Positions 12,401 to 25,221 of a stretch of DNA of 41,035 bases are shown here, in pieces. Numbering within the stretch: the first letter of the stretch is position 1; each line of letters opens with the position of its first letter. Origin of the DNA: Tissierellia bacterium (GTDB taxonomy: Bacteria; Bacillota; Clostridia; Tissierellales; Peptoniphilaceae). The notes beneath the pieces were generated by a model, which saw only the letters and a list, made by a program, of their open reading frames with translations, was not told the origin of the DNA and made no database searches. Where the stretch lies: contig JAUNVC010000012.1 in assembly GCA_030537875.1 (NCBI GenBank), forward strand, positions 1 to 41,035, written 5' to 3'. The translations under genes were made by a program, and so were the position numbers.

Positions 12401-12497
12401 TGGCGGGAGTACGTGCGAATCGAACACACCAATGAAGCTCTGAACTCCATTCGCCGGTTTTGAAGACCGGAGGGCTCACCAGAACCCATCTACCCCC
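12401..12497 (-). tRNA. selC: tRNA-Sec (anticodon UCA)
   Basis: This is a 97-base tRNA with encoded CCA. The anticodon loop CTTCAAA is closed by CCGGT/ACCGG and gives anticodon UCA, which reads UGA. The features special to tRNA-Sec are visible: a long acceptor strand (8 bases, 5' GGGGGTAG against GTACTCCC, with the eighth pair a G-G mismatch as I read it), a 6-bp D stem GGGTTC/GAGCCC with a 4-base loop, and a long variable arm with a 7-bp stem AATGGAG/CTTCATT. The T arm is GTGTG-TTCGATT-CGCAC. It lies in the same direction as selD-selA-selB and is followed by a terminator, so one transcript can carry the whole selenocysteine pathway. Confidence 0.95.
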
Positions 12498-19587: not shown

Positions 19588-20958
19588 CTATGGTCTCAAA
19601 TAGGTACGAATTGCCTGTTCTATTGTGTCAAAGGTCTTGACCGTTGCATGTTTGGTCTTCAATGGATTGTTCCTACTACTGATGGCGATTTCTTTAAATC
19701 CCAAGCGATCTGCCTCCGCTGCTTTGCTCTCGAGGCCCGGTACTTTTCGAACTTCACCCGTCAATGCCACATCTCCCAAAAACACAACTTCTTTATTCAT
19801 GGGAAGTCCATAGTAGGAGGAGGCAATGCTCATTACAATGGCAAAATTAAGGGAAGGATCGGTGGCTTTCAATCCTCCCACCGCTTTTAATACCACATTT
19901 CTATCAAATAATTTCAGTCCCATGGTATCTTCTAAAATACTAATCATAATGTTGAGCGTGTCCTTGCTGACCGATTCCGTAATTCTCGAAGGATAGGGTG
20001 TAAATGTTCTATTCATCAAACTTTCAACTTCAAGTAATATGGGCCTTGTCCCTTCTTTTATTACGCCCAGTGCCGATCCCTTGACGGCACCGTCTGGTCG
20101 CATGGTCATAAAGTATTCACTTGGATTGTTAATGGAAATGAGCCCTTTTTCTTCCATGTGGAAGAAACCCATTTCACCTGTGGAACCATACCGATTTTTG
20201 GTTGACAGCACAGAACGAAGCACCTCCCCTTTTTCTCCCTCAATATAAAGGACCGTATCCACCAAGTGTTCGATGCTCCGAAGACCTTTCAATTCATCAT
20301 CTTTATTCATTTGACCCACGATAAAGACAATCCGGGGTTTCGCGGGATCCTTTGCAAGCTCCACGCATTTGTAGGTACACTCTAAGGTCTGGGTGGGACT
20401 GCCTGCACGACTGGGCATATGTTCATCCAAAACAAAGGTTTGAATGGAGTCCACAATTAGAACATCAATGTCCAGAGCATCCACCCCATTCAACACTTGA
20501 TCAAAGGAGGTGGTTCCCAATACATAAAGAGTATCTTCGATGGATGGTAGGATGCGTTCTCCTCTCTTTCGTATTTGACTTTCGCTTTCCTCTCCTGACG
20601 CATACAAAACCTTGTATCCTTGCTTAGCCAGTGCATTGGATAGTTGGAGGAGCAAGGTACTTTTCCCAGCGCCAGGCCTAGCTGTTAAAATCGTCACACT
20701 GTCTCTGACAATACCGCCACCCATGACTCGATCCAATTCCTCAATGCCGGACAAAATCCGACTGCTATTTTGTCCTTCTACATCCAACAACCGACTCGGC
20801 ATAAGGGTGGTGGATCGACGAACTTTCGTTGATCCAACCACTTCTTCCATCACTTCTTGGAAGGTGGACCACTGTCCGCACATGGGACACTTCCCAAGAT
20901 ATCCCGGAGATTCATATTCACAATTACTGCATCGATATAGGTTCTTTTTCTTTGCCAT
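19588..20958 (-). CDS. radA: DNA repair protein RadA (Sms)
   Basis: RadA (456 residues) is the RecA-like helicase that promotes branch migration in recombination and repair. A four-cysteine zinc finger is at residues 10-27 (C10, C13, C24, C27). The Walker A ARPGAGKST is near 93-101. The RadA signature KNRFG reads KNRYG here, a conservative change. A Lon-protease-like C-terminal domain follows. The start ATG has AAGGAG just upstream, but it lies 35 bases inside the end of clpC in another frame, so the two genes share their ends. Position at the end of the ctsR operon is common in Firmicutes. Confidence 0.96.
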   Translation of the reverse strand: MAKKKNLYRCSNCEYESPGYLGKCPMCGQWSTFQEVMEEVVGSTKVRRSTTLMPSRLLDVEGQNSSRILSGIEELDRVMGGGIVRDSVTILTARPGAGKSTLLLQLSNALAKQGYKVLYASGEESESQIRKRGERILPSIEDTLYVLGTTSFDQVLNGVDALDIDVLIVDSIQTFVLDEHMPSRAGSPTQTLECTYKCVELAKDPAKPRIVFIVGQMNKDDELKGLRSIEHLVDTVLYIEGEKGEVLRSVLSTKNRYGSTGEMGFFHMEEKGLISINNPSEYFMTMRPDGAVKGSALGVIKEGTRPILLEVESLMNRTFTPYPSRITESVSKDTLNIMISILEDTMGLKLFDRNVVLKAVGGLKATDPSLNFAIVMSIASSYYGLPMNKEVVFLGDVALTGEVRKVPGLESKAAEADRLGFKEIAISSRNNPLKTKHATVKTFDTIEQAIRTYLRP

Positions 20959-23347
20959 GCTCTCCTTCTTTCGTAATGGTCACATCATCATCATAATCAA
21001 CAAGAAGAATGTCTCCTTCTGTTATGTCGCCATCTACAATCCTTTCACTTAAAGCATCTTCCAAAGACTTGGTCAGCGCCCTCTTAAGAGGTCTTGCACC
21101 ATAGAGCTCACTGAACCCGTCTTCCGCAATATGATCCACAAAAGCATCGGTAACGTGGATTTCGTACTTATCCTCTATGCGCTTCTGTATAGCTTCGATT
21201 TCTAGTTCTACAATTTTTCGAACATGTTCTTTATCTAGGGTGTGGAATACGACAACTTCATCTATTCTATTTAAAAATTCTGGACGGAACATATCTTTCA
21301 ATGCCTTATCCACTTTTTCTTTTAAAGCCTTCCTGTCTCCTTCTTCCTCCGTTCCAAATCCAAAGGTATTTTTCTTTTTCAAATCCTTGGTTCCCGCATT
21401 GGAGGTCATAATAACAACTGTATTTTTAAAATCAATTTCCTTTCCCTTACTGTCTGTGAGTCTTCCCTCTTCTAAAATTTGCAAGAGAATATTGAAAACA
21501 TCGGGATGGGCTTTTTCAATTTCATCAAAAAGTAAAACTTGATAGGGACGTCTGCGGACAATTTCTGTCAATTGACCCCCATCATCAAATCCCACATATC
21601 CCGGAGGACTTCCGATGAGTTTTGACACAGAGTGTTTTTCCATGTATTCACTCATATCGAGGACCGTCAGCTTATTTTCATCTCCAAATAGCTCATATCC
21701 AATTCGTTTGGCAAGATAGGTTTTTCCCACTCCGGTGGGACCAACAAATAAGAAACTTCCTATGGGCCTATTGGGATCTTTTAACCCTGCTCGGGATCTT
21801 TTGATAGCCCGATCAATCACTTCAATGGCCGTATCTTGTCCTATGACCTTACGTTTTAGGTTCCCAGCAAAATTTCTTAATTTTTCCAACTCCGTTGCCG
21901 TTAATTTGCTAACGGGAACGCCGCTCCATCGACTGACCACTTCTTCAATAGATGAAACACCGACAAGTTTATCTTTTTCTTCGCAATCCTCCTGGGGCTC
22001 TCCTTGCATATGGGTTTCTAAGATGCGCTCTTCATCGCGGAGTTTTGCGGCACGTAAAAAATCTTCCTCTGATATGGCCTGCATTTTCTTTTCTTGAATC
22101 GTTTCCAATTTTTCTTTTAGAATCCAAAGACTATTTTTCGTTTTGAGGGCCGCTCTTTTTTTACTCATGGCCTCATCCATAACATCAATGGCCTTATCCG
22201 GTAAAAAACGATCCTGAATATATCTGGCTGAAAGCTCCACCGCTTCTACCAATGCATCATCGGTTATCTTCATTCCGTGATGTTTCTCAAAACGTGGTCG
22301 TAATCCTCTCAGTATCTCAATTGTCGATTTTTTATCCGGTTCTTTGACTAAAATAGTTTGCAATCTTCTCTCCAAAGCGGAATCTTTTTCAATATATTTT
22401 CTATATTCATCAAGGGTGGTGGCTCCAATAATTTGGATATCTCCTCTTTGCAAATAAGGTTTTAAAATATTGGAGGCGTCTAAACTTCCTTCCGCTCCTC
22501 CTGCTCCTACAATATTGTGTAACTCATCAATAAAAAGAATAATAGAATCATCATTTTTTGCTGTTTGTAAAAGTTTCTTAATTCGATCTTCAAAATCCCC
22601 TCTATACTTGGTCCCGGCAACCAGGGCTGTCAGATCAACCATATAGACTTCCTTGTCCTGTAAATAATAGGGAACTTCTTCTTGAACAATACGCTGTGCA
22701 AAACCTTCTACGACTGCGGTCTTCCCGACACCCGGTTCACCTATAAGGGTGGGGTTATTCTTGGTGCGCCTAGATAAAATCTCGATCATACGATCGATTT
22801 CCTCATCTCTTCCGATTACGGGATCAAGTCGACCGGATTTTGCTCGCTGATTTAAATTGACGGTAAATTCTTCAAAAACATCTTCATTCGGTTCTCCGTC
22901 ATCATCATAATCAGATTCGTCACCGCTGGTCATATATTTTAAAAAGTCAGCCTTGTCAAAGTTCAAATGTTCCAACACAATCCCAATGACATCATAGGGA
23001 TCGCTTATAACACTTGTGGCCAAGACATCTACCGAAACTTCACTTTCTCCCAAAAGCGTTTTCTTGAGAAATACGTCCTTCATAACAATATTTCTAAATC
23101 CCGAAGTATGCCCTAGAATCTTCCCATCTGCCTTTTTACCTACAATGGCAATGAGAGCATTCAAAAATCTCTCATAGCTCAATCCAAATTGGGCTAGAAT
23201 GTTGGTAATTTTTAAGTCTCTTTTATTTAAAATGGCGAGCAAAATGTGCTCTGCTCCTACATATCCATGACCAAGAACCAAGGCTTCATGATTTGCTGCT
23301 TGCAATAGGGCACGGGCCAAGGGGTCAAAATTCGAATAGTCAAACAT
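20924..23347 (-). CDS. clpC: ATP-dependent Clp protease ATPase subunit ClpC
   Basis: ClpC (807 residues) is an AAA+ unfoldase that feeds proteins to ClpP. The N-domain (1-140) has two Clp repeats. The first AAA module has GEPGVGKT at 203-210. A middle region with a UVR-type motif ([14 protein letters not shown]) follows, and then the second AAA module with GPTGVGKT, Walker [12 protein letters not shown] and the sensor arginine region. In the N-domain the first repeat keeps GAEHILL with Glu33. The second repeat reads [13 protein letters not shown] with Asp107 where the phosphoarginine-binding Glu106 of Bacillus ClpC would be, and the rest of that repeat has drifted. The gene lies in the ctsR operon and overlaps radA. 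Confidence 0.96.
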
Positions 23348-23364
23348 TTGTTACCTTCTCCTTC

Positions 23365-24315
23365 TCAATTCTCCATATACGTTTCTATGGATTGTTTATA
23401 AAAAGCCGGTACATCTTCAGCATGTATGGCCAATCTTTTTAAATGTTCTGGTTGTGTGCGTACAAGAATCTCTTTCATTTTATCATATCGGAAAGGAAGA
23501 ATGCCAACCTTTCCCGCCAAGGAAACATCATCTAGGGTACGAAGAAAATCGGGAAAATACACCCGATCCTTTATTTGATAGTCTCGTATATGTTCCTTTA
23601 AAAAAGAAAGAAAATCCGGGTTTTCTCGAAGAGAAGTTACCTCTGCCTCTTCCATCACCGTCAGTTCCTCAACCATGTTCTTTGCAAATCGAATGTCTTC
23701 TGCAATGTTTCCTTTGGATATGACCCGAACAATAAAAAATGCATTGGGGCGACTCACTTGATTAAATGGAAGCAACATCCCTCCAGTGTATTTCATTGTC
23801 TTTTGGGCTGCATTGACTACCTTATTCTGGCTCATGAGCGCCGGAATATGCACCATAGAATCGATCACCAATCCATTGCCACAGAGAGGAATACTAGAGC
23901 TCAAATATTGGAACGTGCGATCTCTTTGAAAAGGGAAAATCTCTTCCAGTTGGTCTGATATTTTCTTCACTCTTTCGTAAAGGGCTTCTACATCCCCCGT
24001 ATCCGTGGACATGCTTATGAGCATATGATCCATATCATTTAACATAAAAGTGATGGGTGGATCGGTTGCATACAAAATAGCAGGATCTTTTCCAACCGTC
24101 ACATCCATCGATAGGAGAAAATTTTCCTTCATATAATCCACTTCATCCATGGCATTTTTATAGGAGGGGATGTATCGTAACGGCAACTCTAATTTTGCAA
24201 TGCCATCCACCATATAATCCCTTAACATTTCTTTTTCTCCATCGGTTAACATGTCGGCATACTTATATCCATGAATATTTCGTAATAAATCCATACTATA
24301 ACCTGAAACTATCAT
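23365..24315 (-). CDS. mcsB: McsB homologue lacking the arginine-kinase catalytic motifs
   Basis: The 316-residue protein aligns with McsB protein-arginine kinase along its length and sits in the canonical place between mcsA and clpC, but its active site is gone. SSRIRLARN reads SGYSMDLLRN at 4-13, so the nucleotide-binding arginines are lost. LNEEDH reads LNDMDH (92-97), losing a catalytic acid. YLTSCPTNVGTG reads YLSSSIPLCGNG (137-148). The RGxYGEGS block and the C-terminal RDxxRA phosphoarginine motif cannot be found. Fold-marking pieces such as SMVHIPAL and the C-terminal TQPEHL remain. It also lacks the first ~25 residues of McsB. It overlaps mcsA by ATGA. I infer a pseudo-kinase that may act only as an adaptor. 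Confidence 0.85.
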   Translation of the reverse strand: MIVSGYSMDLLRNIHGYKYADMLTDGEKEMLRDYMVDGIAKLELPLRYIPSYKNAMDEVDYMKENFLLSMDVTVGKDPAILYATDPPITFMLNDMDHMLISMSTDTGDVEALYERVKKISDQLEEIFPFQRDRTFQYLSSSIPLCGNGLVIDSMVHIPALMSQNKVVNAAQKTMKYTGGMLLPFNQVSRPNAFFIVRVISKGNIAEDIRFAKNMVEELTVMEEAEVTSLRENPDFLSFLKEHIRDYQIKDRVYFPDFLRTLDDVSLAGKVGILPFRYDKMKEILVRTQPEHLKRLAIHAEDVPAFYKQSIETYMEN

Positions 24316-24725
24316 ATCATATTTCCTTCCAAGAGTCCTTTGATTTCCTCCGCCCTTTCATAATCCTCCGTCCGAATGGCAACTTCCAATTCTTTCCGTA
24401 ATTGCTCCATTCTCGCAATATCATTTCTGTCGGCGGAAGGCAGTAAGTTCTTCTTCTTCAATATCTTCAAAATCTCCTGTTTAAAAGTAGAATAACATAC
24501 TTGACATCCAACCACCATACTGGAACGTATCTCCTTCAGTGAGCGACCACATTTGGGGCAGACTTTATCCCCTTCCATGGTTGCATCTTCTGAAAGTTCG
24601 TCTAAATCTTTAAACAACTCAAACAAGTCCTCCGTGATCACCACTTGGACGTCCATCTTTGGGCCGCGATTTCGTTCGCTCTGATTGAAGTCATTGTTTT
24701 CTTCATACCAATACATATTATTCAT
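24312..24725 (-). CDS. mcsA: McsA-like UVR-domain protein with a single zinc finger
   Basis: McsA is the activator/adaptor of McsB and modulator of CtsR. This 137-residue version keeps one treble-clef zinc site, CPKCG at 56-60 and CQVC at 74-77, with the intervening GRSLKEIRSS typical of the second McsA finger. It also keeps a C-terminal UVR motif (LRKELEVAIRTEDYERAEEIKGL is the region, about residues 109-131). The N-terminal zinc finger of standard McsA is absent and replaced by a polar, acidic stretch, so it is shorter than the usual 170-180 residues. The start overlaps the end of ctsR. The change goes together with the loss of the McsB active site. Confidence 0.88.
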   Translation of the reverse strand: MNNMYWYEENNDFNQSERNRGPKMDVQVVITEDLFELFKDLDELSEDATMEGDKVCPKCGRSLKEIRSSMVVGCQVCYSTFKQEILKILKKKNLLPSADRNDIARMEQLRKELEVAIRTEDYERAEEIKGLLEGNMI

Positions 24726-25191
24726 TATAATCCCAATCCCTTGCTAATGCTAGTAGCATGTTTCGTAAAACGGAAGAACGGAGTCTATTTTTATCAATAC
24801 CTTTCACATCAAAACTTCGATCTTCCATGGCCGCTTTGAGCAATGCTCTCTCATTCTTTTTTATAAATCCATGAAGATATAAATGATCTATGATGGCATC
24901 GGCGCCGTGTAACGTTAAAGATGTTCCAATGGATTCATCCAGCATCTTAAGATGTTCTTCCTCCGAATCCATTTCCACCTTAACTATTTTAATATATCCT
25001 CCACCCCCACGTCTACTCTCTATATAATATCCCATACTTGGCTGAAACCGGGTTTCTAAAACATAATTGATCTGGGAAGGAGAACAGTTGAAGTTTCCGG
25101 CCAATTCATTTCTGCGCAACTCAAAAATTCCATCATTGTCTTCTAACATTTGTTTTAAAAATTCTTCAATAACCGTGCTTAGGGCTGCCAT
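24718..25191 (-). CDS. ctsR: Transcriptional regulator of class III heat-shock genes
   Basis: CtsR (157 residues) represses clp genes at normal temperature. The N-terminal winged helix is clear (ELRRNELAGNFNCSPSQINYVLETRF). The glycine-rich thermosensing wing RGGGGYI sits at 61-67, the feature that lets CtsR sense heat by itself. The C-terminal half is the dimer and McsB-contact domain. It is the first gene of ctsR-mcsA-mcsB-clpC-radA and has a likely CtsR site in its own leader, so autoregulation is expected. With McsB apparently inactive, relief of repression would depend on the intrinsic heat response or on adaptor action. Confidence 0.96.
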   Translation of the reverse strand: MAALSTVIEEFLKQMLEDNDGIFELRRNELAGNFNCSPSQINYVLETRFQPSMGYYIESRRGGGGYIKIVKVEMDSEEEHLKMLDESIGTSLTLHGADAIIDHLYLHGFIKKNERALLKAAMEDRSFDVKGIDKNRLRSSVLRNMLLALARDWDYNE

Positions 25192-25204: not shown

Positions 25205-25221
25205 TTTGACTTTCTTTAACT
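25205..25221 (-). promoter_or_regulatory. CtsR operator upstream of ctsR
   Basis: The minus strand reads AGTTAAA-GAA-AGTCAAA, a near-perfect match to the CtsR direct repeat RGTCAAA-NAN-RGTCAAA with one mismatch in the first half. It lies 14-30 bases before the ctsR ATG. A possible promoter (TTGTTT, 18 bases, TATATA) sits directly upstream, so bound CtsR would cover the transcription start. Confidence 0.75.

Follow-up and report, generated by a model that had tools for sequence, protein, structure and literature searches.

Why should an anaerobic bacterium keep, between mcsA and clpC, the gene of an arginine kinase that has no active site left? The question is raised by the ctsR-mcsA-mcsB-clpC heat-shock operon of a Tissierellia bacterium belonging to Ezakiella (assembly GCA_030537875.1, contig JAUNVC010000012.1, positions 1 to 41,035); this whole stretch of 41,035 nucleotides is called the window below. 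Its McsB homologue (23365..24315, minus strand, 316 aa) is by sequence a pseudokinase. The answer that we favour, with a probability of about 0.53, is that this pseudokinase is maintained by selection and forms with McsA a phosphorylation-free binding module acting on CtsR and ClpCP. An earlier note on the same DNA had described a decay of the phosphoarginine system in this genome. The decay is real, and it extends beyond the window, recurring across the family.

A McsB homologue without catalytic residues

The homologue matched the phosphagen-kinase catalytic domain PF00217 with 53.6 bits, above the cut-off of 22.4, and stayed far under the NCBIfam equivalog cut-offs (best 59 bits against 385; 45.5 against 500 for McsB-Bac). 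Its best solved relatives by sequence were McsB chains, 8gqd at the top with 8wtb, 6tv6 and 6fh1. The catalytic columns were read from aligned McsB sequences (63 in all, of which 29 represent the kinase type); residues in this alignment were placed by motifs and the eight catalytic residues were assumed to have their phosphagen-kinase roles. Where the kinase type shows R, R, E, R, C, R, R and E, the window protein shows S, D, D, L, S, V, L and a gap, so that none of the eight is kept. The phosphoarginine pocket RDxxR, of which the last Arg alone is invariant in the 29 kinase-type proteins, has become V-P-Y. SSRxRxAR, NEEDH (now NDMDH), CPTNxGTG, RGxxGEG and RDxxRA are all gone, and the alignment thereby bears out what the earlier note had said of these motifs (SSRIRxAR, TxCPTNxGTG and the RGxxGEGS region in its spelling). 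Of the 49 columns in which the kinase type is invariant or nearly so, 14 remain, including R12-N13, D96-H97, G146, G148 and E222.

The note had also claimed that the fold is kept, and here too it was right as far as profile alignment can tell. A profile of Ezakiella McsB aligned with that of 12 kinase-type McsB proteins over 281 columns with a probability of 99.3%, and the other five pseudokinase groups reached 98.8-100% over 306-346 columns. On this basis the window protein is predicted to retain the kinase fold, and from the missing residues we infer that it is inactive as a kinase.

It might be argued that the protein is still an enzyme whose active site was rebuilt for another phosphoryl donor or acceptor. 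Our family sample comprised 73 genomes, the window's and 72 relatives, and all 34 pseudokinases found among them still have His97 (of NEEDH), Arg12-Asn13, Gly146 and Glu222. However, 24 of these 34 retain none of the five arginines, two glutamates and the cysteine, while seven retain one, two retain two and one retains three. The lost residues have no common replacement, the substitutions differing between lineages. We therefore regard a rebuilt enzyme as quite improbable.

Two McsB models, run against the whole window genome (an assembly of 1.19 Mb that is 71.6% complete), detected no second McsB; nor did this assembly give any LMWPc match. Arginine phosphorylation might then persist through a writer and an eraser encoded in the missing 28%. 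This has hardly any probability, because each of five Ezakiella sister genomes, with a listed completeness of 99%, contains a single PF00217 match, in every case a pseudokinase, and no phosphatase of the YwlE type was found in any of them. Thus neither a second intact McsB nor YwlE turned up in the window genome or its five sisters. Since all known catalytic residues that hold ATP or arginine are missing and no eraser was found, an Ezakiella cell, to judge from its genes, most likely lacks the phosphoarginine mark.

Could the gene simply be decaying, kept for now by its position in the operon? Its protein evolves faster, and no mcsB was found in 22 of the 73 family genomes (counting G016, whose contig ends before mcsB), as one would expect of a pseudogene. 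Against this, the open frame is full-length in all 34 pseudokinase genomes, and the ratio of non-synonymous to synonymous change (dN/dS, Nei-Gojobori) was 0.04-0.14 in the seven close pairs tested, two of which share a genome, compared with 0.075-0.10 in three kinase-type pairs. Moreover, separate losses of catalysis have left the same segment of the protein in place. With neither dN/dS near 1 nor broken frames, the pseudogene reading was rejected and is left with a negligible share of our belief. The dead McsB is under purifying selection; it is less constrained than the kinase type, as follows from its faster evolution relative to ribosomal proteins.

Repeated loss of the writer and its eraser

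The wider sample consisted of 121 genomes (the window's and 120 relatives), 48 of which came from other families of the order. Regions around ctsR were read in those family relatives that had a CtsR match, 68 in number, and in 12 of the 48 order genomes. The sensitivity of the PF00217 and CtsR searches is shown solely by their matches in 94 and 111 of the 121 genomes, respectively; the 14 control genomes, with no PF00217 match, no NCBIfam McsB match and one CtsR match, do not validate them. Bacillus subtilis has adjacent genes for McsB (PF00217) and CtsR, and the B. subtilis control genome gave no match to either. Our guess is that the control copy lacks this stretch.

McsB was matched in 51 of the 73 family genomes and not in 22, G016 among them. 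The 51 fall into 17 genomes whose McsB keeps six to eight of the eight catalytic residues and 34 in which it keeps none to three. Together with 12 proteins from the order, the 17 make up the 29 kinase-type sequences (eight residues in 27, seven in one, six in one). Retention is therefore bimodal, 6-8 residues in 29 proteins against 0-3 in 34.

A tree was built by a quick method from 21 ribosomal-operon proteins (2904 columns; 80 genomes, namely 27 kinase-type, 34 pseudokinase and 19 without McsB). On this tree the pseudokinase label requires five changes, at least four of them forced by starred branches, and the three states require nine. All 12 outgroup rows are of kinase type. If catalysis is assumed never to be regained, there are eight maximal clades without a writer, five of which contain pseudokinases: Ezakiella with g16 (nine pseudokinase genomes), a clade of 14 genomes, g21 (three), g6 with G043 (three), and g24, g33 and g11 (five). 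Since no resolved branch separates g21 from the g6 group, the tree implies that catalysis was lost separately four or five times while McsB was kept.

The eraser follows the same division. Phosphatases matching PF01451 were sorted into types by their P-loop, and the YwlE type was present in all 17 kinase-type family genomes and in none of the 34 pseudokinase genomes. Its P-loop reads C[T/A]GNTCRS in 16 of the 17 and CIGNTARS, a degenerate form, in G022. Nine pseudokinase genomes have some PF01451 match. Eight of these were read and are of a C-x-H-N-S-C-R-S type that we take to be arsenate-reductase-like; the ninth, in G003, is 49 residues long and no P-loop motif was seen in its fetched stretch. 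Among the order genomes YwlE was assigned in 12 from PF01451 matches, and the P-loop, read in seven of the 12, was always CTGNTCRS. The earlier statement that the writer was lost can thus be extended: no YwlE-type eraser was found either, neither in the window genome nor in any of the 34 family pseudokinase genomes. Writer and eraser were lost together in four of four independent tree pairs (p 0.125, four pairs being too few for significance). A YwlE-type P-loop without a McsB match occurs in G016 and G114, the contig of G016 ending before mcsB.

In two genomes writer and eraser are both partly degraded. In G022 (L154, L084) McsB has R replaced by K and E by T and the phosphatase P-loop is the degenerate CIGNTARS, as if, by their sequences, both kinase and phosphatase were on their way out. 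G165 (L325, L272) combines C-to-S and E-to-N changes in McsB with a phosphatase-like P-loop, SNEDTARAP, that has no cysteine. In G125, G217 and G380 (L270, L271, L273) and in G014 (L076) the catalytic Cys is Ser, the other catalytic columns are complete and a YwlE-type phosphatase is present; these McsB proteins may be active kinases in which Ser has naturally taken the place of Cys.

Beyond the family, PF00217 was matched in 265 of 391 genomes sampled from the class. Thirty of the 265 were read; they were hand-picked, mostly low scorers, so they show that the change recurs and not how frequent it is. Twenty-three keep at most five of the eight catalytic residues, six keep six to eight, and one (G272) is cut by a contig end. 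In those of the 23 degenerate class genomes whose phosphatase matches were read, G319 excepted, either none was found or the match was of a C-x-G-N-I-C-R-S or arsenate-reductase-like type. G319 (L319, L278) is an exception to the pairing of writer and eraser, having a CTGNTCRS phosphatase although its McsB keeps three of the eight residues, and G440 and G165 also speak against such a rule, since they keep six of eight and a canonical YwlE P-loop was not found. In the genus g122 McsB is degenerate (0-2 of 8) in all ten sampled genomes. A second phosphatase match in this genus falls in a protein some 600 residues long that carries a low-molecular-weight phosphatase domain at its C-terminus. In all eight proteins read (L324:199-2031, L326:238-2031, L314, L315, L316, L317, L321 and L323) the catalytic arginine is missing from the P-loop of this domain. 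According to Pfam, Sua5 precedes the phosphatase domain in both proteins tested (L324, L326). It is possible that this domain has been kept dead, a putative pseudo-eraser beside a pseudo-writer.

The predicted McsA contact is kept in the lineage and the ClpC site seems to drift

What, then, has been kept in these proteins? In Staphylococcus aureus the C-terminal finger of McsA is reported to grip an extended McsB loop, Tyr147-Tyr153, situated just before the catalytic Cys157 (PMC12467219), and in B. subtilis McsB binding has been assigned to the second McsA finger (PMC7235348). Measured by its distance from the catalytic cysteine, this loop occupies reference columns 149-155 of our alignment and residues 131-137 of the window protein (23905..23925, minus strand). 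Over the six pseudokinase groups mean identity in the eight catalytic columns falls from 0.99 to 0.03. In columns 149-156, which span the loop, it is 0.66, compared with 0.68 in the kinase type; in the pseudokinases these columns rank first among all 336 eight-column segments (median 0.24). The predicted McsA interface thus appears to be retained in the pseudokinase lineage. Outside the family, the Gly-(Tyr/Phe)-Leu of the loop is kept in all 23 degenerate class proteins.

The presumed partner of this loop is present as well. The window mcsA (24312..24725, minus strand) scored 30.7 bits with NCBIfam McsA, below the cut-off of 210, and had no Pfam match. Its product contains one finger instead of two. 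The four cysteines C56, C59, C74 and C77 (24495..24560, minus strand) have the spacing of the C-terminal finger, by which we identify them with the McsB-binding one, and because ctsR overlaps the mcsA start no hidden N-terminal finger fits. A UVR-like C-terminal helix pattern could be recognised by eye, here as in the 26 McsA sequences examined, although Pfam gave no UVR match at 0.001 for the window protein.

Both fingers are found in 29/29 kinase-type genomes. The pseudokinase genomes have finger 2 in 34/34 and both fingers in 24/34, so that the loss of the N-terminal finger reported for this locus is real here and is no general part of the decay. Finger 1 is missing in all six Ezakiella and all three g21 genomes, and G043, in which one CxxC pair is changed, was scored without it. 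In the 17 genomes with a full operon and no McsB (G016 set aside) the picture is reversed, with finger 1 alone in 14 and both fingers in three. From these patterns finger 2 seems to follow McsB, and finger 1 seems able to live without it. The association rests on few events in the tree, two changes for finger 2 and three for finger 1, and of the four tree pairs two point the same way and two show no difference. The 14 McsB-less genomes (e.g. L070, L089 and L073) encode the McsA-like protein with the N-terminal finger alone directly before clpC, an arrangement suggestive of an independent role of finger 1 with ClpC or CtsR.

The earlier note had seen a third element of the decay in ClpC (clpC, 20924..23347, minus strand; an AAA+ protein with N-domain and UVR-like middle domain). 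Of the two phosphoarginine-site glutamates, the equivalent of Glu32 is kept as Glu33 (23249..23251, minus strand) and that of Glu106 is Asp107 (23027..23029, minus strand). This description is correct, but the idea that reader and writer were lost together is not upheld by comparison of the two sites in relatives, where the relaxation looks later. Both glutamates occur in all 29 kinase-type genomes, in 22 of the 34 with a pseudokinase and in 10 of the 17 that lack McsB, i.e. in 29/29 with a writer and 32/51 without (Fisher p 6e-5, uncorrected for kinship). Three of the six Ezakiella genomes retain Glu at both sites, the window has Glu/Asp and two have His/Asp. When kinship was taken into account, the ClpC change went in the same direction as writer loss in an average of 0.5 of four tree pairs, and a coordinated change was rejected. 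It looks as if the reader site drifts lineage by lineage once the writer has gone. Nor is the change special to the two glutamates, since other conserved N-domain positions relax too, among them Thr82 (0.51) and Arg84 (0.35). In S. aureus the double change E32A/E106A is reported to loosen the resting state of ClpC (PMC12583610), and by analogy the natural changes may also tune ClpC.

A proposed binding role on CtsR and ClpC

With the active site lost, selection persisting, the same change repeated in relatives and the matching phosphatase lost too, the McsB homologue probably works by binding and not by phosphorylating. Its catalytic loss, the YwlE that was not found, its purifying selection, its retained McsA interface and its repeated origin can be read from the sequences; that it binds McsA, CtsR and ClpC and has a delivery function is what we infer. 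The module that we favour would work as follows. The McsA finger would grip the retained loop of pseudo-McsB and serve as the on/off joint of the complex. The complex would hold CtsR, possibly damaged proteins too, and would bring them to ClpCP by contact alone. A search that detected MecA in B. subtilis and Lactococcus gave no match in any of the 121 genomes. ClpC of these bacteria therefore probably does without MecA, and McsA with pseudo-McsB might then be a main way to load ClpC. For other bacteria it is reported that McsA and McsB bind the ClpC N-domain (PMC12583610), and in B. subtilis the kinase-dead McsB C167S is reported to slow degradation of MgsR less than a deletion does (PMC7235348). 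The earlier suggestion of a phosphorylation-independent adaptor to ClpCP is thus plausible in view of the kept loop and finger and of the MecA that was not found; it is set back by the reported kinase dependence of ClpC stimulation in B. subtilis.

Several observations weigh against our reading. In B. subtilis McsB is reported to stimulate ClpC only when active as a kinase (PMC5506225), and the MgsR effect is not mediated by ClpC: deletion of clpC is described as having no effect on MgsR, ClpX being suggested instead (PMC7235348). In the loop of the window protein Gln136 replaces a Gly that is present in 33 of 34. The 23 degenerate proteins from outside the family do not have the loop as their top-ranked segment, and their catalytic mean is 0.21 and not 0.03. 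The ratio of McsB to ribosomal protein distance is 5.2-10.1 in five pseudokinase groups compared with 2.9-4.7 in four kinase-type groups. Seventeen family genomes with a full ctsR-clpC operon manage without McsB, and the test of joint writer and eraser loss comprises just four pairs.

The explanation could instead lie in redox control of CtsR. An oxidised McsA finger would free pseudo-McsB to strip CtsR off DNA, with no adaptor role towards ClpC. For this there is a precedent in B. subtilis, where oxidation of McsA is reported to free McsB and CtsR is taken off DNA with the kinase off (PMC5506225); an action of McsB on CtsR without its kinase is documented no less well than the adaptor role. 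The parts that it needs are the very parts that were kept (CtsR, its box, McsA finger 2 and the contact loop). Furthermore, ctsR is present in 51 of 51 family genomes with mcsB, and the four family genomes in which ctsR was not matched gave no match for mcsB either. On the other hand, 17 family genomes have ctsR and no mcsB, so CtsR does not need McsB, and G101, from another family, has McsB and no CtsR match. An anti-repressor would also leave the function of ClpC, for which no MecA was found, unexplained. We consider this alternative possible, though doubtful. That the protein is a pseudokinase is common to the anti-repressor and the binding module on CtsR and ClpCP, and we are far surer of it than of either.

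The minus-strand order in the window is ctsR (24718..25191), mcsA, mcsB, clpC and radA (19588..20958), with both repressor domains matched in ctsR (PF05848, 110 bits; PF17727, 56.9 bits). Upstream of ctsR, at 25205..25221 on the minus strand, lies a CtsR-box-like direct repeat, AGTTAAAGAAAGTCAAA, with one mismatch to RGTCAAANANRGTCAAA; it ends 13 bases before the start codon. By chance 0.85 matches with at most two mismatches are expected per window, but this position and the recurrence of the box in the family make it credible. It is found letter for letter in three further Ezakiella genomes, and a box with at most three mismatches precedes ctsR in 33/34 pseudokinase, 27/29 kinase-type and 16/18 other genomes (shuffled mean 4.8). 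The order ctsR-mcsA-(mcsB)-clpC is kept in loci that reach clpC, and where mcsB is absent clpC adjoins the mcsA-like gene. CtsR, its operator and the operon order have therefore been preserved, as the earlier note had stated. ClpP was found in the window genome. A scan of named genomes with the Ezakiella McsB gave four loci, all from Ezakiella (E. peruensis, E. coagulans and two metagenome-assembled genomes). Elsewhere in the window a tRNA-Sec gene lies at 12401-12497, by which the organism probably makes selenoproteins.

Compared with known systems, the window protein shares with the McsB kinases of B. subtilis, Geobacillus stearothermophilus and S. aureus its homology over at least 281 columns of the clostridial McsB profile, its place between mcsA and clpC and, in its lineage, the McsA-contact loop. 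It differs from them in having none of the eight catalytic residues, no RDxxR pocket, no YwlE found beside it and scores under the NCBIfam cut-offs. Its McsA resembles the known activator in the C-terminal CxxC-CxxC finger, a tail that looks UVR-like by eye and the place after ctsR, whereas the N-terminal finger is missing in the six Ezakiella and three g21 proteins. The proposed delivery to ClpCP by contact would be shared with MecA and other phosphorylation-free ClpC adaptors; MecA, unmatched in the genomes searched, is to our knowledge not homologous to McsB. Eukaryotic and bacterial Ser/Thr pseudokinases likewise keep a kinase-family fold by selection after catalysis has been lost. McsB, in contrast, has the phosphagen-kinase fold, and the loss took place several times within one bacterial family. 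Full-text literature searches, which leave subscription journals mostly outside, gave no title or abstract opening on McsB pseudokinases, and in one paper of near topic McsB appears in the references alone. Pseudo-McsB is a new, repeated variant of the known McsB family.

More broadly, and with less confidence than we give to the module itself, we would tentatively suggest that anaerobic Firmicutes have on many occasions switched off arginine phosphorylation by killing the kinase in place and not by deletion alone. The dead kinase would have become a McsA-held subunit of phosphorylation-free ClpC and CtsR control; McsA would have split, finger 2 staying with McsB and finger 1 alone where McsB is gone; and in g122 a pseudo-writer would stand beside a pseudo-eraser. 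Selection that kept the McsB protein but not the kinase amounts to a natural experiment, one that names the surface that matters, the McsA-contact loop. It also provides a paired test of which ClpC sites serve phosphoarginine, namely those that relax only after the writer has been lost. Finally, where separate lineages have lost writer and eraser together, this paired loss serves as a genomic signature of absent arginine phosphorylation, useful for annotation because pseudo-McsB proteins match the Pfam kinase family well over its cut-off.

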